A stretch of DNA of 46,818 nt from Bacillota bacterium (GTDB taxonomy: Bacteria; Bacillota; UBA4882; UBA8346). The notes beneath the pieces are model-generated. The model searched no databases. It saw nothing but the letters and a program-made list of their open reading frames with translations, and was not told the DNA's origin. Positions 4,213-46,818 of this stretch are shown here, piece after piece. The translations under genes were made by a program, and so were the position numbers. Position 1 is the first letter of the stretch. Each line of letters opens with the position of its first letter. The stretch covers positions 1 to 46,818 of the forward strand of contig JAAYEK010000096.1 in the NCBI GenBank assembly GCA_012728785.1, given 5' to 3'.

Positions 4213-5448
4213 ATGAGGATTTCATCAGTAAAGCGTTTATTAACGCTTATTATTATTGGCGCTCTAATTTTCGGCGGAGGAAGTATTATTTCAAAGGCCG
4301 AAGGTGATTCCCAACCAGAGTCAATTACTAATGGTGAAGCTGATTTGGCGGAGAACCATACACTTTCTGAGGTACTTGCGAAAGGTAAAGTTATCGAAGT
4401 AATATCGGAAGATGAAACAATTGATCCCCTTTCTCAGCAACCAACAGTGAATCAGATTTTAAAAGTATTAATCACTTCCGGTAAATATAAAGGAAGAGAA
4501 GTTGCAGTTATAAATTATCAAACGGATAATCCGGTTTATAATATTAAAGTTGAAGATGGTGACGGTGTAATTGTCGCCTTGGAAATTGACGGAACGGATC
4601 AAAGTAAAATCAAAGAAGCATATATCGCCGACCATCTTCGAGAGGATGAATTATACTTATTGTTAGCGGTTTTTGTAATTGCGATTTTAGCGATTGGTTG
4701 GCGAAAGGGGGCGAAAGCCCTTTGTGCGCTCCTATTAACTTTGGTTTTAATCTGGGGGGTCTTATTACCTGGATTTTTACATGGTTATAGTCCAGTCTTT
4801 TTAACAGCGGTTATTGCAATTCTTGCTACGGTGGTTACTATTTTAATCGTAGGAGGACGAACCCTGAAAAGTATCACAGCCATTTGTGGTACTTTGGGTG
4901 GGGTCGCCGTAGCCGGGTTATTGGCCTTGCTTGTTGGCAAGGCGGCCCATCTCACCGGTTTCGGAACGGAAGAAGCGGCAATGCTGTTATATATTCCCCA
5001 AGCGGCGAAATTGGATATTCAAGGATTGCTTTTTGCCGGAATTATCATTGGCGCTTTAGGGGCCTCAATGGATGTGAGCATGTCCATCGCTTCGGCGGTG
5101 GAAGAAGTAAAACGGGTTTGTCCGGAGTTGAAGATTTGGCGGTTATTTCAGTCTGGGATGAATGTGGGACGGGATATTATGGGGACCATGGCCAATACGT
5201 TAATTTTGGCTTATACCGGAAGCTCGCTTCAATTGATCCTGATTTTTATGGCATATAAGGAAAGCTTGTTGAAGATTTTTAACTTGGATATGATTGCCTC
5301 CGAGGTAGTCCGAGCGTTATCAGGCAGTATTGGGATGATTATGGTAATACCCTTAACCTCGATAATCGCTGCTGTGTTATATGGGAAAATCAAGAAAGAA
5401 CGGTTCACCACGGATAATGAAAAAGTTGAGGCGGAAAAAGCTATTTGA
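4213..5448 (+). CDS. YibE/F-like multi-pass membrane protein
   Basis: The 411-residue protein has an N-terminal membrane/signal segment, then an extracytoplasmic domain of about 110 residues (GKVIEVISEDETIDPLSQQPTV and following). About seven membrane helices follow from residue 150. The blocks LGWRKG-type IAILAIGWRKGAKAL, GALGASMDVSMSIASAVEEV and GRDIMGTMANTLILAYTG are typical of the YibE/F family, whose function is not established. The open frame extends to 4069, but AGGAGG at 4202-4207 sets ATG 4213 as the start. It lies 27 bases upstream of the PanE-like gene, so the two probably form an operon. Confidence 0.8.
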   Translation: MRISSVKRLLTLIIIGALIFGGGSIISKAEGDSQPESITNGEADLAENHTLSEVLAKGKVIEVISEDETIDPLSQQPTVNQILKVLITSGKYKGREVAVINYQTDNPVYNIKVEDGDGVIVALEIDGTDQSKIKEAYIADHLREDELYLLLAVFVIAILAIGWRKGAKALCALLLTLVLIWGVLLPGFLHGYSPVFLTAVIAILATVVTILIVGGRTLKSITAICGTLGGVAVAGLLALLVGKAAHLTGFGTEEAAMLLYIPQAAKLDIQGLLFAGIIIGALGASMDVSMSIASAVEEVKRVCPELKIWRLFQSGMNVGRDIMGTMANTLILAYTGSSLQLILIFMAYKESLLKIFNLDMIASEVVRALSGSIGMIMVIPLTSIIAAVLYGKIKKERFTTDNEKVEAEKAI

Positions 5449-5475
5449 AGAAATTATTAAAAAGGGTTAGATACA

Positions 5476-6393
5476 ATGAAAACAATTAGAAAAGTTTATC
5501 TTTCCGGTCTGGGAGCGATTGGCAGCTCTTATGCGGCTAAGTTTTATGAGAATAATCCGGATTTGGCGACAGTAGTCGCCGACGCAAAACGGATTGAACG
5601 TTACCGTGCTCAAGGGATTTTGGTAAATGGGAAAGCTTATTCCTTCCGTTATCTTGAGCCGGAAACTACCGACGAAAAGGCGGATTTAATCTTAATCGCC
5701 GTTAAACAGCATCAACTGGAGGAGAGCATTCGAGGGATTCGTAACTTTGTCGGGAGAGAGACGATCATTCTTTCTTTATTAAATGGGATTTCCAGTGAAG
5801 AATTGATCGGCAAGGAATTCGGGATGGAGAAAATGTTATACTCCTTTGTAGTCGGTACCGATGCAGTCCGGGAAGGTACAAAAACATCCTTCTCCAAGCT
5901 TGGAAAGGTAGTTTTCGGTGAAAAAAATAATCCGGAATATTCGGAGAAAGTACTGTTAGTCAAGGAACTTTTCGAACGGGTGGGAATTCCTTATCAGATT
6001 CCAGTGAACATGTTGAAAGAACTTTGGTGGAAATTTATGCTGAATGTTGGAATCAACCAAGTTTCGGCGATTTTGAAAGCGCCATACGGTGTGTTTCAGA
6101 GGATCGGAGAAGCTAAAGAGTTAATGGAGATGGCCTGTAGGGAAGTAATCCGGTTATCGGAGAAAGTGGGAATCAACCTTACCGAGAATGATCTTCAAAA
6201 TAGTATCAAGATTGTCAATACCTTGGGGCCGGATGGTAAGACCTCAATGCTACAGGATGTGGAGGCGGGCCGGAAGACGGAAGTAGAGATCTTTGCCGGG
6301 ACTGTAGCTAGATTAGGAAGGGAGTATGGAGTAAGTACACCGGTGAATGATTTTTTGTTAAGAGCGATCTATACTTTGGAGCAAACTTATTAA
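5476..6393 (+). CDS. panE: 2-dehydropantoate 2-reductase (ketopantoate reductase) family
   Basis: PanE reduces ketopantoate to pantoate with NADPH in pantothenate/CoA synthesis. The 305-residue length is normal. The N-terminal Rossmann motif GLGAIGSSYA (about residues 11-20) binds the nucleotide. The middle has KQHQLEESI and LNGISSEE, and the C-terminal domain has KLWWKF-type ELWWKFMLNVGINQVSAI. The substrate-side signature SMLQDVEAGRKTEVE is near residue 260. Several paralogues in this family act on other 2-keto acids, so the exact substrate is inferred. AAAGGG lies shortly upstream of ATG 5476. Confidence 0.85.
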   Translation: MKTIRKVYLSGLGAIGSSYAAKFYENNPDLATVVADAKRIERYRAQGILVNGKAYSFRYLEPETTDEKADLILIAVKQHQLEESIRGIRNFVGRETIILSLLNGISSEELIGKEFGMEKMLYSFVVGTDAVREGTKTSFSKLGKVVFGEKNNPEYSEKVLLVKELFERVGIPYQIPVNMLKELWWKFMLNVGINQVSAILKAPYGVFQRIGEAKELMEMACREVIRLSEKVGINLTENDLQNSIKIVNTLGPDGKTSMLQDVEAGRKTEVEIFAGTVARLGREYGVSTPVNDFLLRAIYTLEQTY

Positions 6394-20332: not shown

Positions 20333-20454
20333 GAGATAGTTAAATAATAATTTGAGTCACTCATGGGATTTTTAATTTATTATCAAAAGAATATGTTATA
20401 ATCTTCTTAGTCTTTTATTGGCTTGATCGGTTCTTTAGCGAACAATTTCATAAG

Positions 20455-20619
20455 TTTATCAGGTGTCCGGATAGTTCCGGATGAAAAGGGAAAGCGGTGT
20501 GAATCCGCTACAGCCCCCGCTACTGTAAGTGAGGATGCTCAATCAAACAACAGCCACTGGTTTAACCGGGAAGGCGATTGGGTCAGATGATTCACGAGTC
20601 AGGAGACCTGCCTGATAAA
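20455..20619 (+). ncRNA. Cobalamin riboswitch controlling btuFCD
   Basis: Conserved blocks of the B12 aptamer are present in order: GGGAAAGCGGTGTGAATCCGC, ACAGCCCCCGCTACTGTAA, CAGCCACTGG, CCGGGAAGGCG, and the closing GAGTCAGGAGACCTGCC. The ends pair as P1 (TTTATCAGG 20455-20463 with CCTGATAAA 20611-20619). Adenosyl- or related cobalamin binding should switch off the downstream uptake genes. The expression platform is a terminator/antiterminator pair just downstream. Confidence 0.95.
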
Positions 20620-20671
20620 TCTCAATAAGTACCTTCGGTGGGAAGGAAGCGTCGGCTTTAACAGACTGATT

Positions 20672-23668: not shown

Positions 23669-23679
23669 GCTAATTTTTC

Positions 23680-23841
23680 AGCCCAAGGCGCCGCAAAACG
23701 GCTTAATAGGGAAACAGGTGTCGAATCCTGTGCGGTCCCGCCACTGTATTAGGGGAGTAACTTGACAATCAGCCACTGGATAACAACCGGGAAGGCGTCA
23801 AGTAGACGATGAACCTAGAGCCAGGAGACCTGCCTTGAGCT
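23680..23841 (+). ncRNA. Second cobalamin riboswitch, controlling btuB-tonB-exbBD
   Basis: A second complete B12 aptamer contains TAGGGAAACAGGTGTCGAAT, CCTGTGCGGTCCCGCCACTGT, CAGCCACTGG, CCGGGAAGGCGTC and GAGCCAGGAGACCTGCC. P1 forms between AGCCCAAGG (23680-23688) and CCTTGAGCT (23833-23841). It separates inner-membrane transport genes from outer-membrane transport genes, so each half has its own B12 control. Confidence 0.95.
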
Positions 23842-23896
23842 AAATATCACGGCCTACGGGAGATAGGAGGATGATGCCGATGTTTTATTGGATAAC

Positions 23897-35921: not shown

Positions 35922-38764
35922 TTACCATGACCAGTTCCACCAACTCCAACTTGAGCCGGAACCGCTGCCGGAAGCTGGGGCCGAAGCTGAAGACGGAGGC
36001 GTACTCCGATAACCCGGTAAACTCGTGGTGAGCAGCGTATAATCGAAGGGAACTTGGAAAATATCGGTACTCTGATGGATAACGACGGATTTTCCGATAA
36101 ACGCTCCCTTAGCATCCGCTTTAAATCCAAGATCGACATTGAGATAACCGGTGTTAGGCGCGAATATGGTTCCTCGCCATTTAGAATCCGGCGCGAGATA
36201 AACCTGATTCTGAGAGGCCGTGATAATCAAGACCCTTGATGCGTCGTCATTGGTGACATTCATCTTAGTCCGGCTCTTAATCTCAACATTTCCTTTGGCG
36301 ATGATGATCACCGGATGGGTTGATGTGTCAAAGTCCAGAATCGCATCGGGTTCAGTAGTAAAATTATTACAGTAGAAGACACCGCCGCCTTTAAAGGTTA
36401 AGCGGGCGCCATTACTTCCTACGCTGATGTTTTTATATACACCGTTCCATTTCTCTACACTTTGGCCGCAAATAACATTGCCGACATATGACTGATAACC
36501 GAGGATCATTTGCGGATTACTGCTGCTGCCTTTTCCGACGCCGATCTGTCCATAGGTGCTGGGTTCGTTGTTTTTGCTCTTGGTAATATACAGTTTGGCC
36601 CGATCATGAAAATCGGTATGTTCAGAACCATAGACTCCGTAATTAGCCGCGGCGTTGGTATCAATGGTTATCGGCCCCCAAGTGATATCGTCGCGTGGTT
36701 TGGCTTCGTCGCCAAAGTAAATGCCAAACTCCGCAAAGGCTAAAGCGATCTCCACCTGGCTGAAGAAGCGATGCCACCGGATGGTTACCCCGTTAGGATC
36801 TTCATCAGGATCTGTAGGATAGATATCGCCGTCTCCATCAGGATCATCATTGTTTACGCCGTTTTTAGCGTTTAAGAGTTTAGTGTAACTAATGTCCTTT
36901 GCTCCTTGAGGACCGGGATTTTCTTCAAAACGAGCCCGGATTTGGTCATAGGTCATGTAATTATGAACGTTACGAGGGTCATTGGAACTCTCCAGTTTGG
37001 AAAATACATTTCCATAGCGGCTGCCTGCCTTATGCATTCCCATACCGGTAGGTAAGAGACCTGTCCTTTTCACCATTTCGGGAGAGCCGTCATCGAGACG
37101 GGTGCCGGGAACATAAACCTTAGCGTTGAAGAAGTTATTAACAAAAGCCGCACTACGGTACTCGTTAGCGTATCCCCGCTCATCCTTGAAATTGGCGTAG
37201 AGCAAATCAAGGATTTGTTGGGCTAAATTACGGGTAGCAACAACTGTTGGATTACTAGGATTGTTGGTGTGTTTGCGTTTTCCAGCTGCATAATAGATGT
37301 AGGTCCGGGCTAGGTTACCGGCGACGCTGGTGTCTACGTAATAGACGTCGTTCCCGCCTCCATCTTTTTTCACACTGACATGATAACCGGTGTTGGCCGG
37401 CGGCAACGCATCACCGCTCGTAGGCGCCCAGACGCTATCAGGTTGCCCACTCCATACCAGCGCGCCGGGGGTCTTAATAGATCCGGCCGGATCGGCAGGA
37501 TCGAGCTTTGTCACGCTGCTCGCCCAAGTAATCCATTGATCGAGAATGGTTTCGAGTTTAGTTTTTAGCGGGTCGGCGGTATCCACCTCCAAGTAGAGTT
37601 CGGCCAGACGCTGCATCAGCCAGACTTGCCAGCCAATCCAGGCGTTGCTGTCTCCGTCCGGATTTTTAAAGTTAGGGTCGCTCGGAAGTTTAGTCGGATC
37701 TTGACCGAAATAAACCGGACTGTCCGTGTAATACATACCATAGAAACTTCTTCGGTAATTAGGATCGCTCGATGGGAGTGTCCTATAATTGGCTAGATTG
37801 TGTAGATCGTCCGCAGTGGGGGTTGGGATGGGAGGACTGGGATCCCAAACCTTATTGGGGTCCGAATAATTCCCATTCCAGCAGTTGGTGACGCCGCCGC
37901 CGATGGCGCCTTCAGCCGATTGCAGCCAGCGGATGAGTTCCAGTTGCCGGTTGAGACTGGTGCTCCATTCTTTTGCGCCGCCTTCAGAAGTCGGCATGGT
38001 TTTATTTAGACCCAATACGTTTTTCTGAACGTCGATTTTGTTCGTGAGTCCTTTTTTAAACCAATCATATTTACTGAGCGCATAAGCAGCCATAGGGTTT
38101 TGATAGCCGGCGTGGACGTTATCGTCGCCGATCCGCCAGGGATAGTTTCCGAGCGATGATGGATCGTCAATAGCCGCGCCCCAGGCGTAGTTCCAACCCA
38201 AAAGGTAATGGACATTTTTTTCCGGGTTCTTGGCGACATCCGGATTATGGACGGTAATGCGGTGTTTATATGTGCTTTGTGACGGGGTAGGTTTGTAAAT
38301 CGGTTCAATGGTCTCCGTAAACTTCATGCCGAGGGGTAGAAAATACTTGGTGCGCATCCCGTAACGGAGGAAATTGCCCATTTTCCCCATTTTGGCGCTA
38401 AGATCTTCTAACGCCATTCTATTGTACGGCCTAGTTTTTTCCAGAACCTTAGCCGCCATATACGCGGCCTGAATGGCCCGGGCGTCGGCGTCCGTCGCCA
38501 CTGAGTAACTGTACTCCGGTTTCCAGCCGTATGAACTGTTTAAAAAGATATCGGAAAAACCTTTGTCGCCTGCTGTATTATTGCCGTAAGTATGGTCCTT
38601 CCAGTTGGGATGGGGGATGGTGGACCAGGAAGATTCGGCGCCTCCCCGCTCGCAGGTTGCTAGATAAGGGGGTTTCTTGTGGCGGCATCAGTGGTGTTGG
38701 AAGATACTACCACCATAACCAGTAAAACCAGGACCAAAAAATTAATACAGAACTTTTTCATCAT
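35922..38764 (-). pseudogene. GH48 cellulase copy 1: deleted N-terminal part, frame broken
   Basis: A signal peptide opens at ATG 38764 (or 38761) after AAGGAGG, with FLVLVLLVMVVVSSNTTDAA nearly identical to copy 2. It reads RNP and hits TAG within two codons. The GH48 frame resumes one base off at PYLATCERGGAESSW and stays open to 35922. Compared with copy 2, 193 residues are missing. They include EAPDYGHETTSE, which carries Glu residues matching CelF E44 and E55 (E55 is the proposed catalytic acid). A second in-frame loss of about 70 residues lies in the C-terminal module. The break falls at A-AAC-CCC-C, where a one-base slip or sequencing undercall would restore a secreted but inactive-looking protein. 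The Trp-rich tail WSWWNWSW is intact. Confidence 0.82.
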
Positions 38765-40151: not shown

Positions 40152-42962
40152 TTACGGTAAGGTAGTTACGGTCAAGGGACTACTATGACCGGAAATGTTT
40201 CCCGCCAAATCTACCGCGCGAACGGTAAAGCGATATGTGGTGTTTGCTTTCAATTTTTTAACATTATAGGTTAGGTAAGATATAGACGAGACTAAAGTAC
40301 CATTTTGATAGACTTGGTATTTTGCTACCTTTTTATTGTCCCAGGTGGGATCCCATTGCAAAGATATCGTTGTACTTGTCCGGGAGGTGTACTTAAGGTT
40401 CCACGGCGCTGCAGGTGGTGTTATATCGTAGTTGACAGCTTCATCCACGAAACCGGCGACCCAGGCTAGCGCAGCGTTCCAGTTGACGGCAACTTCATTG
40501 CAGGCGTATGCGTCGCAATGATCGATATAGCATTTTTGGGGATAAACATCAGCGAAACGCTTATAGGTATTGCCGACAAGTACATTACTGCGGGGAAATT
40601 CCGTCTCTTTCATAAAATCATCATAATCCTCAACAACTTGACAAGGTCCGCCCAGGATTACTCCAGGTGGAGGGGACGGATAATCGGGATTTACTTGTTT
40701 AGCCCAGAAACGGTGATGGGGATTTTTTGCGTAAAAGCTAGAGTTCGTCATATCTGATGTCACATAGCTGATAAAATTGGCGTTAGTCCCCAGCAGATAA
40801 TCCAGGCATTGGGTGACCCCATCCAGATACTGTTTGTTCCGGTAGTTTAAATCGTAAGCATAGGCCAGAATGATGGCCCGATTAAGGACGCTGCTGTTGG
40901 AACCCCAATAATACTTAGTAATCGGTACGGGGTATTTCTGGCCTTTCATTACGTTGAGCACCGCATTGGCATAATTATTGATTTGGTATTTGGCTATCGA
41001 TTGGTAGTTTGAATTGGTACCAACCAATGCCAGTGATAAGGAACCTAAGGCTGCCGTATCCCGCCAATCGAAGGGTCCTTCTTCACCTGCTTTGTTGACG
41101 CCTTTTAGACCCACATTCCAACCGAAATGTTTCGAATTATTGATTACATTTGAATAACTAGTACCGCCGGTGGCAAGATAAAGTTCGCAGGCGGCCCAGA
41201 ATAATTCGTCCGTATTGTCCCCCTGAACTTTTATTTCTCCTTCGCTATCATAGGATTGGCACTCGTAGTATCCGCCGCCGTAATCCACTCGGTTTTCTTT
41301 TCGTCCGTCATATCCGTCCGTATCATCCATAATCAGCGTCCTGGTATATTCGTTGGGATATTTTTCTGCCGCATCCCATGCGTCTTTGGCCGCAGTCAAA
41401 CAGGTATTGGCAAAACTTTTGTCAAGATTCTTCCATAAACGATAACTTTGGGCGGCAACGGCGGCAAAAGCCAAGGTTGCCGAAGTGCTGGGCGGATAAG
41501 CAACCCGTTTCAGTTTGTTATCGGAAGGTTTTTTAGGAGTCATAGCCCACACGGTATCATGGAATTTATGATGGACCATGCCTTTTTTCACTCCGGATTT
41601 TATCTGCATTCCCAATAACATTTCCATTTCCCAGCGGGCTTCATCGAGAATATCGGGATATGAGTTTTTATTTTCCGGAATCCTCATGGTCCCGTTGGCA
41701 TAGGCCTCGGGTTTAGCGCCTGAGATTTGAAGAGTCCGTTCATACTGATTATGCATTAGCCACAGGGCAAGGGCGCCGCTAGGCACATACTTGCCATGAT
41801 CACCGGCATCGTACCAACCTTTCGCAGCATTGATAGAACCATAGTCCGATTTTTGATATCCTTGATTGACTAAAAATGCGTTGCCGATTTCATCGCTAAC
41901 CGGTTCGCCAATATCCGAAGGATTTCCGTTTTGGTCTACATGTCCGGCAGGCCGACGCAAACCCATATTAAGGGGTAAATTAATTGCAATACCGCTCCGT
42001 TGCTGGTAAAAGAAGTTCAAAGCGTCGTATTTTAAGTCCTCATATAAATCATATGTCATGTTTATTTGATCAGGACATTTAAGAGTTCCGTTTTTGGCAT
42101 AAAGATAGGCGCTTCTTACCGATGGGTCATTAAAAGAACTAAAATCGATAAGATGAAGATGATCTCCCGAACTGGTGTCGGTTCCTAATACCGTGGTAAA
42201 GCCGGAAGCCAGGACCTTATTGCTGTTTTTTAATTGCCAGTCCAGTGGGGATGTGGAGGAGTCTACCAGGATGGCGGTTTTTTTCCCATCAGGAATATAT
42301 CCTTCGAAATTAACCCTGAATGGGCTAATAGTACGAGGTTTGGGCCGCTGGGTATTAGCGCCGCCAGTCAATGAGAAATTATCCATGGTAATGGTGTACG
42401 GTGTAATTTTGATCTTGTTGTTGCTATCTCTTTCTATTTTGCTTAAATCCGATAAATAGACGACAAAATGAGCTTGTTTATAGTCTTGTTTCATCGTGAA
42501 TGTTCGACTGTATTTTACTACCTGACCCGCTTTTAGTTTAAGTTTAGGCGTTTTATCAAAGTCCGGGAACCATGGTTCGTCCGACCAGGTAAGGGCGGCC
42601 CCTTTTAATGTTACATCAATACTTGACTTGATTTCAAAACCCCAAGTATAAGTCACGCCGTTCAGCAGGACTAAATTTTGATGTCTAAACTGAATGTCGT
42701 AATTATTAATACCAGGATGCGTAACTTTAACGTGGTATTTTCCTTGAGCAGGCCTTGTTGTTGTTACATACCCGTTTGCGGTGGCGTCGGGAGACTGATA
42801 TAAAACCCACGGCGATGCCCATCCGGTTTTAGGATAGGTTGCGTTATTGAAAGAGCTATTACCAAGCATAAATTCATTACTGGCATGAATATTCTGCGGC
42901 ATCACGAATAGCGTCATCAAAATTGACGCTATAAAAAGCATGGATAAAACACGTTTTTTCAT
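40152..42962 (-). CDS. GH9 endoglucanase with N-terminal CBM-like and Ig-like domains and C-terminal Fn3
   Basis: The 936-residue secreted enzyme starts with a signal peptide (cleavage near IHA, residue about 27). A CBM4/9-like domain follows (about 30-205), then an Ig-like domain (about 212-315). The GH9 catalytic domain (about 320-840) has GWYDAGDHGKYVPSG with the nucleophile/base Asp pair, NPHHRFW, and the acid Glu in NEVAVNWNAALAW. A fibronectin type III domain (about 845-936) closes the protein. It should cleave internal beta-1,4 bonds of cellulose. No dockerin or anchor motif is present. Start ATG 42962. Confidence 0.93.
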   Translation of the reverse strand: MKKRVLSMLFIASILMTLFVMPQNIHASNEFMLGNSSFNNATYPKTGWASPWVLYQSPDATANGYVTTTRPAQGKYHVKVTHPGINNYDIQFRHQNLVLLNGVTYTWGFEIKSSIDVTLKGAALTWSDEPWFPDFDKTPKLKLKAGQVVKYSRTFTMKQDYKQAHFVVYLSDLSKIERDSNNKIKITPYTITMDNFSLTGGANTQRPKPRTISPFRVNFEGYIPDGKKTAILVDSSTSPLDWQLKNSNKVLASGFTTVLGTDTSSGDHLHLIDFSSFNDPSVRSAYLYAKNGTLKCPDQINMTYDLYEDLKYDALNFFYQQRSGIAINLPLNMGLRRPAGHVDQNGNPSDIGEPVSDEIGNAFLVNQGYQKSDYGSINAAKGWYDAGDHGKYVPSGALALWLMHNQYERTLQISGAKPEAYANGTMRIPENKNSYPDILDEARWEMEMLLGMQIKSGVKKGMVHHKFHDTVWAMTPKKPSDNKLKRVAYPPSTSATLAFAAVAAQSYRLWKNLDKSFANTCLTAAKDAWDAAEKYPNEYTRTLIMDDTDGYDGRKENRVDYGGGYYECQSYDSEGEIKVQGDNTDELFWAACELYLATGGTSYSNVINNSKHFGWNVGLKGVNKAGEEGPFDWRDTAALGSLSLALVGTNSNYQSIAKYQINNYANAVLNVMKGQKYPVPITKYYWGSNSSVLNRAIILAYAYDLNYRNKQYLDGVTQCLDYLLGTNANFISYVTSDMTNSSFYAKNPHHRFWAKQVNPDYPSPPPGVILGGPCQVVEDYDDFMKETEFPRSNVLVGNTYKRFADVYPQKCYIDHCDAYACNEVAVNWNAALAWVAGFVDEAVNYDITPPAAPWNLKYTSRTSTTISLQWDPTWDNKKVAKYQVYQNGTLVSSISYLTYNVKKLKANTTYRFTVRAVDLAGNISGHSSPLTVTTLP

Positions 42963-43175: not shown

Positions 43176-46100
43176 TTACCAAGACCAATTCCACCAACTC
43201 CAACCTGAGCTGGAACCGGTGTTGGAAGGTGCAGACGGAGCGTTAGTTCGATAACCAGGTAAGCTCGTGGTGAGCAGTTCATACTGGAAGGGAACTTGGA
43301 TAATATCCGTGTCTTGATGAATGACGACTGATTTTCCGATAAACGCGCCCTTGGCATCAATCTTTGATCCAATATCAACATTGAGATAACCGGTGTTGGG
43401 AGCGAATAGGGTTCCCCGCCATTTTGCATCCGGAGCAAGATAGACCTGATTTTGGGATGCAGTGATGATCAAAAGCTTTGAGGCATCGTCATTGGTGACA
43501 TTCATCTGAGTCCGGCTCTTGATGTCCACGTTTCCTTTGGCAATGATGATCACCGGATGGGTTGAAGTATCGATGTCTAGAATAGCGTCGGGTTCAGTAG
43601 CAAAATTATTGCAGTAGAAGACTCCGCCACCTTTAAGGCTCAAACGGCCGTTGCTCCCGACGTTAATATTTCCGTAGGTACCGTTCCATTTCTCAATGGT
43701 CTGGCCATTACCGACGTTGATATGGTCGCTTGAGGTGTAACATTTGCTCGCATCGAAAGTATAGTTCAGGAAACCAAGGTCTCGATCGGGATTGTCTTTA
43801 CAAAGGTTATCCAGAGCTATATGCTCTCCTTTTCCGATGAAGCCGGTTCCCCAATCGATTTCGCCGGCAGCAAGCACATCGCCGACACGCACCGGTCCCC
43901 GAATCCATAGTTTGGGTTGACCGCATATAACATTGCCGACATCTGACGCATAGCCGAGGATCATCTGCGGATTGCTGCTGGACCCTTTTCCAACGCCGAT
44001 CTGACCATAGGTGCTGGGTACGCCCGGTACGGTGCTCTTGTTGAGGTATAGTTTGGCCCGATCATGAAAATCGGTATGGGCGGAGCCATAGACACCGTAA
44101 TTAGATGCTGCGTTGGCGTCGATGGTCAAGGGACCCCAGTTAATCTCATTGCTGGTTTCGGCTTCGTCACCAAAGTAAAGGCCAAACTCGGCAAAGGCCA
44201 AAGCGATCTCCACTTGGCTGAAGAAACGGTGATAAGAGATGGTAACCTTCTTGCTTGGGTCGTTATAGGCAGCCATGAGTTTATCGTAGTTAATATCATC
44301 GGCGCCTTGGGGACCGGGATTATCTTCGAATTTTGCCCTGATCTGATCATAAGTCATGTAACCAAAAGCATTATTAGGATCATCGGAGCTTGTCAGTTTG
44401 GAGATTACATCCCCGTATCGGCTGCCGGCCTTATGGTCCCCCATGTTGGCGGGCAAAGCGCCTTCTCTTTTCACCATGTTCGGGGAGGCATAGTTCACTT
44501 TTTTTGTATTTTTCGGATTGGTAGGTTTAGGATCGGGTTCTTCGATTTCGTTTGGACCGAGACGAGTGCCGGGAACATAAATCTTAGCGTTGAAGAAATT
44601 ATCAACGTATTCGCGGGACATATATGTGTTGGTGTATCCTCGTTCATCCTTATAACTGGTGTAGAGTAGATCCAGGATTTGTTGGGCCATATTTCGCGCT
44701 GCTGTTACCGTTGCATCGTTACCGATATGTTTCCGCCTGCCTGCCGCATAGTAGATAAGCGTTCGGGCAAAGTTGCCGGTGATACTGATATCCGTATTGT
44801 GGGTTCCTACATGTACTTTGTAGTTATAATTCCTTGGCGGGGTTGAACCGGATCCGCCGGACCAATCGGCATCGGGTTGATTTTCCCATGTCAATTCCGC
44901 TGGGAGTTTGATCCTATCCATGGGATCTGTGGCGGAAGGATTCATTTGGGCCTCATTCATCGCCCAATTTATCCATTGATCCAGGATTGTGCTGAGTTTA
45001 TCTCTTAGTTGGGTTTCGGTGTTTTTGTCCAGCTCATTATAGAGTTCGGCCAGTCGCTGCATCAACCAGACCTGCCAACCAAACCAAGCGTTGCTGTCGC
45101 CATTAGGGTTCGGGTTTCCGGTAATAGGATCTCTTCCAATATAGACCGGGCTTGGTGTATAGTACATACCGTGGAAAGAATTAACATAGCCGGGATCTCC
45201 GGGGCTTTTACCAAGATTGGGATCTTTATACTGGCCCTCCCAACAGTTGGTCACGCCGCCGCCGATGGCGCCTTCGTAGGTTTGCAGCCATCGAATCAGG
45301 TCCAACTGCCTAATCAAGCTGGTGCTCCATTCTTGCTTACCGCCTTCGGTATATGATGTAGTGTCGGTAAGCTCTTGATTGAACCAATTAAACTTGGTCA
45401 GGGCATAAGCGGCCATCGGATTTTGGTAGGCGGCATGGACATTATCGTCGCCGATCCGCCAGGGGTGTATCCCATCAAGTCTAGATCCCCAAGCATAGTT
45501 CCAACCCAACAGATAGTGAACATTGCCGTTTTTATTATCGGGATCGAGGACGGTGATTTGGTGATCGTATTTACTCAAGGCCGGGTCCGGATTAACAACC
45601 GGAGTAAAAGTTTCCGCAAACTTGCGGCCGAGAGGCATAAAATACTTGGTCCTCATGCCATAGCGGAGAAAATTACCCATTTTCCCCATTTTGGCGCTAA
45701 GATTTCGGAGCGCCAATGGGTTGCTCCTTCTGGTTTTTTCCAGGACTTTAGCCGCCAGATACGAGGCCTGAATGGCCCGGGCGTCAGCGTCGGTCGCCAC
45801 GGAGTAGCTGTACTCAGGTTCCCAACCATACTCGCTGTTAAGGAAGATATCGGCGAAACCGTGAGTGTTACTCGTATTATTGCCGAATCTATGGTCCTTC
45901 CAGTTCGGGTGGGGAATGGTGTTCCAGGAGGATTCGGAGCCTCCGCGCTCGCAGGTGGCAAGGTAAGTCGCTTTCCTCGTGCTGAAAAGGTCTCCCCGAT
46001 ACCCGAAGCCGTAAAAATTGTCGGTATCCAACAACCAGTGCATCCCGTAAACCTGTTTATTCCCATATTTTTTCTTCAATTCTTTGGCTAGAGGATCGTC

Positions 46101-46613
46101 ATTAGGATACAACGGGAAATAACTGTCATCCGGTTTTTTCCCCCTTTTACTCCACATGAGCACGGGGTAGTCTTCCACTGTAATGGATTGTTTAGCGTAA
46201 CGCCCGCCCTTAACAGTACCCTCATTACCAGGATTTTCATATATAGGTTGATCCTGTGGACTGGGAATAATATAATCCTCCATAGATTCCAACGCTGTTC
46301 GAAAAGGCGCATAATCCTTGGTCAACTTAAAGTACATGGCCTCGAGCCAGAGGTAATAGGAGTATGTTTCACTGGTGGTCTCGTGGCCGTAGTCGGGAGC
46401 TTCGCAAAGAAAAGTCTCGAAGGCGTGATAGGGAACGCCTTCGGGGCTGAAGTAACCAGCATCCTGAAATTCGTCCTGAGGCGTCTTTTGGTTTACCTTG
46501 TAGTTGTGAATGATATCATACAACTCAAAGAATCTTTCAGTGTAGGGATTTCTGATGGCGGCTTCTGTGGTATTGGAAGATACCACCACCATAACCAGTA
46601 AAACTAGGACCAA
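43176..46613 (-). CDS. GH48 cellulase copy 2, full length but with disrupted start
   Basis: The open frame gives 1145 residues. The GH48 catalytic region (about 20-855) has CEAPDYGHETTSETYSYYLW (Glu71 and Glu82 match CelF E44/E55), then ATCERGGSESSWNTIPHPNW and YMTYDQIRAKF. The enzyme class is a reducing-end cellobiohydrolase. A C-terminal module of about 250 residues and a Ser/Gly linker ending WSWWNWSW follow. The expected ATG (46637-46635), 13 bases after AGGAGG, is followed at once by TAA (46634-46632). The open frame therefore begins at TTG 46613, which would leave a signal peptide without its basic N-terminus. One base change would restore ATG-AAA-AAA. Confidence 0.85.
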   Translation of the reverse strand: MVLVLLVMVVVSSNTTEAAIRNPYTERFFELYDIIHNYKVNQKTPQDEFQDAGYFSPEGVPYHAFETFLCEAPDYGHETTSETYSYYLWLEAMYFKLTKDYAPFRTALESMEDYIIPSPQDQPIYENPGNEGTVKGGRYAKQSITVEDYPVLMWSKRGKKPDDSYFPLYPNDDPLAKELKKKYGNKQVYGMHWLLDTDNFYGFGYRGDLFSTRKATYLATCERGGSESSWNTIPHPNWKDHRFGNNTSNTHGFADIFLNSEYGWEPEYSYSVATDADARAIQASYLAAKVLEKTRRSNPLALRNLSAKMGKMGNFLRYGMRTKYFMPLGRKFAETFTPVVNPDPALSKYDHQITVLDPDNKNGNVHYLLGWNYAWGSRLDGIHPWRIGDDNVHAAYQNPMAAYALTKFNWFNQELTDTTSYTEGGKQEWSTSLIRQLDLIRWLQTYEGAIGGGVTNCWEGQYKDPNLGKSPGDPGYVNSFHGMYYTPSPVYIGRDPITGNPNPNGDSNAWFGWQVWLMQRLAELYNELDKNTETQLRDKLSTILDQWINWAMNEAQMNPSATDPMDRIKLPAELTWENQPDADWSGGSGSTPPRNYNYKVHVGTHNTDISITGNFARTLIYYAAGRRKHIGNDATVTAARNMAQQILDLLYTSYKDERGYTNTYMSREYVDNFFNAKIYVPGTRLGPNEIEEPDPKPTNPKNTKKVNYASPNMVKREGALPANMGDHKAGSRYGDVISKLTSSDDPNNAFGYMTYDQIRAKFEDNPGPQGADDINYDKLMAAYNDPSKKVTISYHRFFSQVEIALAFAEFGLYFGDEAETSNEINWGPLTIDANAASNYGVYGSAHTDFHDRAKLYLNKSTVPGVPSTYGQIGVGKGSSSNPQMILGYASDVGNVICGQPKLWIRGPVRVGDVLAAGEIDWGTGFIGKGEHIALDNLCKDNPDRDLGFLNYTFDASKCYTSSDHINVGNGQTIEKWNGTYGNINVGSNGRLSLKGGGVFYCNNFATEPDAILDIDTSTHPVIIIAKGNVDIKSRTQMNVTNDDASKLLIITASQNQVYLAPDAKWRGTLFAPNTGYLNVDIGSKIDAKGAFIGKSVVIHQDTDIIQVPFQYELLTTSLPGYRTNAPSAPSNTGSSSGWSWWNWSW

Positions 46614-46637
46614 AAACTTGATACCAAATTTTTACAT

Positions 46638-46818
46638 TCTAAATTTCTGTCCTCCTTTATTTGAGTCTTCGTGTTGTGATAAAAAGATAGTTCTCTTTTT
46701 GGTAAAATAAAAACCAAGCAGAGCGGAAGATAAAAAACCGAGCAAAAAATGGAAAAACCATTGCCAGCACCCGGAACTTAATACCGATACCCTTAAGGTA
46801 GCACACCAAAAGGGGGTA
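46638..46818. other. Upstream region of GH48 copy 2, window edge
   Basis: It contains the AAAGGAGG site for GH48 copy 2 and short inverted repeats. The minus strand is open to the window edge (stop near 46654) with a hydrophobic stretch FRVLAMVFPFFARFF, but there is not enough sequence to call a gene. Confidence 0.35.

Follow-up and report, generated by a model that had tools for sequence, protein, structure and literature searches.

Start codons followed at once by a stop codon regulate genes in eukaryotes, as in the AUGUAA of Arabidopsis NIP5;1 (PMC11915504) and in the start-stop uORFs that depend on DENR-MCT-1 (PMC5972666). In bacteria, termination-reinitiation occurs at NUGA / AUGUGA sites, such as that of narQ (PMC9841429), and in E. 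coli and Haloferax a gap of about 20 nt almost completely abolishes it (PMC10666635). We analyzed a stretch of 46,818 nucleotides from a Bacillota bacterium (the window), in which one of two GH48 genes, copy 2, has TAA directly after its ATG. This site shares with the eukaryotic start-stop uORFs an AUG with an immediate stop upstream of a coding frame, and with the narQ-type sites the juxtaposition of start and stop at an initiation site. However, the uORFs belong to eukaryotic scanning and precede a main ORF with its own start, whereas the stop of copy 2 lies inside its own frame; the narQ-type sites overlap the true start by a few nucleotides, whereas the next possible start of copy 2 is 18 nt off and has no SD sequence. 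By this comparison, known start-stop regulation is eukaryotic or consists of short overlaps at bacterial starts, and neither fits copy 2. Copy 2 also resembles bacterial pseudogenes associated with nonsense mutations or insertion sequences (IS) in its early in-frame stop, adjoining IS, otherwise open frame and disrupted paralogue, but differs from them in that the stop is exactly codon 2 and the whole mature coding sequence is intact. The features of the locus are as follows.

35922-38764, minus strand: GH48 copy 1 (the paralogue), with an SD sequence and a TTG-ATG-ATG-AAA start; frame broken
40152-42962, minus strand: apparently intact GH9 cellulase (CBM_4_9, CelD_N and fn3 domains), located between GH48 copies 1 and 2
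43176-46631, minus strand: GH48 copy 2, with a signal peptide, GH48 catalytic domain and C-terminal DUF7305; frame intact after the TAA
46611-46613, minus strand: TTG, the first downstream in-frame codon usable as a start (rival start site); no SD-like sequence ahead
46632-46637, minus strand: ATG-TAA, a start codon and immediate stop, from sequence, translation and alignment with the paralogue
46638-46693, minus strand: remaining leader of copy 2, 56 nt between the IS end and the ATG, containing AAAGGAGG
46694-46818, minus strand: istA-proximal end of an IS21-family insertion sequence, by repeat identity to other contigs; runs to the contig end

On the minus strand, AAAGGAGG is followed by 13 nt (ACAGAAATTTAGA), ATG (46637-46635), TAA (46634-46632) and then AAA TTT GGT ATC AAG TTT TTG. 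The translation reads past the TAA as M*KFGIKFLVLVLLVMVVVSSNTTEAA... (alternatively given as M*KFGIKFLVLVLLVMVVVSSNTTEAAIRNP...), and no stop follows before the one that naturally ends the frame, the TAA at 43176. Counted from the first TAA, 1151 codons are open; counted from TTG 46613, the frame has 1145 codons. Sequence and translation thus confirmed the preliminary description of this site, in which an SD sequence, 13 bases, ATG, TAA and AAA lead in frame into the signal peptide and a GH48 frame of 1145 codons. The paralogue has, as that description claimed, ATG-AAA at the equivalent place, which is the second ATG (38761-38759) of a TTG-ATG-ATG-AAA-AAG start behind AAGGAGG. The further proposal that one substitution explains the difference holds for the TAA alone but not for the start region as a whole. 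Between the SD sequence and codon 3, the copies differ at 7/18 positions compared with 9/69 in the next 23 codons of the signal peptide (Fisher p = 0.019, for a region picked after being seen). Further, the two other possible starts of the paralogue, a TTG and the first ATG, which have better SD spacing (7 and 10 nt), are TTT and AGA in copy 2. The start region of copy 2 is therefore degraded beyond the TAA.

The protein encoded downstream of the TAA matches GH48 in Pfam (PF02011, residues 24-683, 494.7 bits) and carries the C-terminal DUF7305. E71, E82 and the DADARA motif, which are conserved with other GH48s, are retained; judging from the alignment offset, E71 and E82 should correspond to E44 and E55 of Cel48F. 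By sequence, copy 2 is thus a GH48 with its catalytic glutamates, and this part is absent from copy 1. Copy 2 shares the catalytic domain, both glutamates and DADARA with the GH48 cellobiohydrolases of PF02011, but differs from them in its DUF7305 and in its low identity to other GH48s, only about 40-45%; the GH48s found in the genomes, contigs and plasmids searched (below) were about 32-45% identical. Pfam detected neither a dockerin nor a CBM in the GH48 copies. Their architecture is unusual (43176-46613 and 35922-38501), as a divergent GH48 catalytic domain is combined with DUF7305 (PF23981) and a WSWWNWSW tail. Reassignment of the stop codon was set aside as improbable, since the GH48 frame itself ends in TAA and the genes of the window translate normally under table 11. 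Two cobalamin riboswitches were found in the window on the plus strand (20444-20629 and 23669-23851; Rfam RF00174, 141 and 117 bits), and Rfam detected no riboswitch near GH48.

The paralogue had been taken as an intact reference, which was not borne out. Compared with copy 2, copy 1 lacks 577 nt after the signal peptide, a length that is not a multiple of three and puts the remainder out of frame, and both N-terminal catalytic glutamates fall in the missing part. Translation of the signal peptide of copy 1 ends at a stop (...TTDAATRNPLI*), and GH48 coding sequence picks up in another register at ...PPYLATCERGG; ahead of the junction the GH48 frame contains a TGA, and the frame breaks at a run of five C. 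The DUF7305 region of copy 1 additionally lacks 216 nt, in frame. Thus, the start of copy 1 models an intact start, but copy 1 itself is not an intact gene.

At its end (46694-46818), the window carries 125 nt that recur without a mismatch at the starts of contigs C40 and C32 and with 94% identity at positions 6192-6316 of contig C235; all four sequences part right after ...ACCAAAAAGA. On C235, the ORF that comes after this end matches NF033546 transpos_IS21 (188.2 bits; NCBIfam cut-off 160), and istA is transcribed away from the IS end. The IS21-family assignment thus rests on the transposase for the C235 copy and, for the 125 nt in the window, on similarity to it. Because these last 125 nt are a repeated IS end, the contig stops inside an IS21-family element. 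The preliminary description had seen the ATG-TAA but missed this IS end, the contig end within a repeat and the broken paralogue. Only 56 nt separate the IS end from the ATG of copy 2 downstream, and homology to the leader of the paralogue begins only at 46675, so that the native promoter region has probably been displaced by the IS. Any promoter farther upstream would now lie at best beyond the far side of the IS. No sigma-70-like promoter was found on the minus strand in the last 319 bp (46500-46818), although such scans are weak evidence. On C235 (L008), the related IS21-family end is inserted beside a YD-repeat/RHS-like gene (4802-6268), and the IS end at 6192-6316 is read in frame into this ORF.

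Across 776 aligned codons, the two copies differ with dS of about 1.1 and dN/dS of 0.19, and differences at codon positions 1, 2 and 3 number 177, 123 and 344. For most of their history, both frames have therefore been subject to purifying selection, which argues that the loss is recent. In copy 2, 441 of the 10305 possible single changes create stops, so that each unit of neutral divergence should bring about 147 stops. As no further stop was seen, the time since selection ceased can be at most about 0.02 substitutions per site, which amounts to a few per cent of the time elapsed after the duplication. This short bound indicates either that inactivation was recent or that the gene is still in use. 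Among relatives, the only same-genus genome compared lacks both GH48 and GH9, no same-family genome carries a GH48 and only two other genomes in the class carry one. No close orthologue of copy 2 was found among the proteins of all 29 same-class and 398 phylum genomes or in GTDB genome contigs, viral contigs and plasmids.

We consider it likely, with a probability of roughly 70%, that GH48 copy 2 is a cellulase gene inactivated recently, in a lineage that is losing its GH48 pair. A substitution would have turned the codon after the ATG into TAA and, with TAA as codon 2, ribosomes recruited by the SD sequence would stop after fMet. Separately, an IS21-family element would have inserted 56 nt upstream of the ATG, probably removing the native promoter. 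In the sister copy, the N-terminal catalytic part would have been deleted and the frame broken, so that the whole pair would be in the course of being lost. Our analysis demonstrates the state of the sequence, the IS end, the broken paralogue and the past purifying selection, and from these we infer a genuine and fixed TAA, loss of the promoter and absence of a protein product. Recent inactivation, one of the options raised at the outset, draws support from the IS21-family end just upstream, a sister copy that is broken, a same-genus genome devoid of GH48 and GH9, and a frame that is otherwise intact. Copy 2 shows a disabling change in a gene-like frame and past purifying selection, as expected of a pseudogene. 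Also counting for inactivation, the start region diverged faster than the signal peptide and two starts of the paralogue are missing. On the other side, copy 2 shows no other disabling change over its 3.4 kb and keeps its catalytic residues, as would equally be expected if translation continued; the SD sequence is retained; the ATG-TAA lies 184 nt from the contig end; and the IS may carry an outward promoter overlooked by the sigma-70 scan.

A base-level error or the consensus of a minority strain, with a sense codon truly following the ATG, is an unlikely source of the TAA. The assembly is apparently metagenome-derived and fragmented (296 contigs), the contig ends nearby in a repeat and everything downstream of the TAA is intact, all of which would suit such an error. 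However, consensus errors are rare per base, and an error would leave the IS and the broken paralogue unexplained. Collapse of the two GH48 copies is unlikely because the paralogue is only 82% identical at the site; with the ATG-TAA also lying 60 nt outside the IS repeat, repeat collapse was rejected as the source of the TAA.

Weak translation from TTG 46613 or ATG 46592, initiated afresh or by reinitiation, would yield a poorly secreted or cytoplasmic enzyme, and we regard it as decidedly unlikely. The unbroken frame from TTG 46613 and the conserved catalytic residues are in its favor, but this TTG has no SD sequence and is 18 nt past the TAA, about as far as the gap that all but eliminates reinitiation in E. 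coli and Haloferax (PMC10666635). In copy 2, no start after the TAA was found that has an RBS of its own or falls within the reinitiation range taken from that study. Further, a start at TTG 46613 would drop the lysines of the signal peptide, leaving no basic n-region; that these lysines are part of the signal peptide follows from the N-terminus of the paralogue, which reads MKKFCINF... Reinitiation at TTG 46613, an early suggestion for this site, is thus disfavored.

It is highly improbable that the ATG-TAA is a regulatory start-stop element that controls the cellulase through ribosome parking, conditional reinitiation or readthrough. The strong SD sequence kept before the ATG-TAA, the intact downstream frame and the eukaryotic precedents (PMC5972666, PMC11915504) could be read in this way, with ribosomes parked or recycled at SD-ATG-TAA and secretion-competent GH48 made only under conditions permitting readthrough or reinitiation, a scheme to which we give very little credence. 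When the pattern GGAGG-N4-14-ATG-stop was counted across the genome, there were 8, 7 and 6 sites with TAA, TGA and TAG compared with 16, 5 and 16 for the reversed pattern as control, so that SD-ATG-stop was not enriched. Only the GH48 site, one of 21, opens into a long frame (the next longest has 61 codons), and ATG-stop thus does not recur before long frames among these sites in the genome. The folding of the leader RNA was ordinary compared with shuffles (z = 0.21), and an RNA structure hiding or presenting the start was therefore rejected. In addition, no conserved orthologue was found in the genomes searched, and the upstream region has been replaced by the IS. A bacterial cellulase truly under start-stop control would be new, but nothing here favors such control.

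The ATG-TAA of copy 2 therefore most likely reflects ordinary recent gene loss rather than a new genetic switch. If copy 2 is a pseudogene, the locus is a snapshot of a bacterium losing its GH48 pair, in which one copy was lost by internal deletion and loss of frame and the other by a stop at codon 2 and an IS at the promoter. Gene-calling software would probably report copy 2 as an intact cellulase starting from TTG 46613, and such an annotation, which likely overstates the cellulolytic potential of the organism, should be treated with caution.
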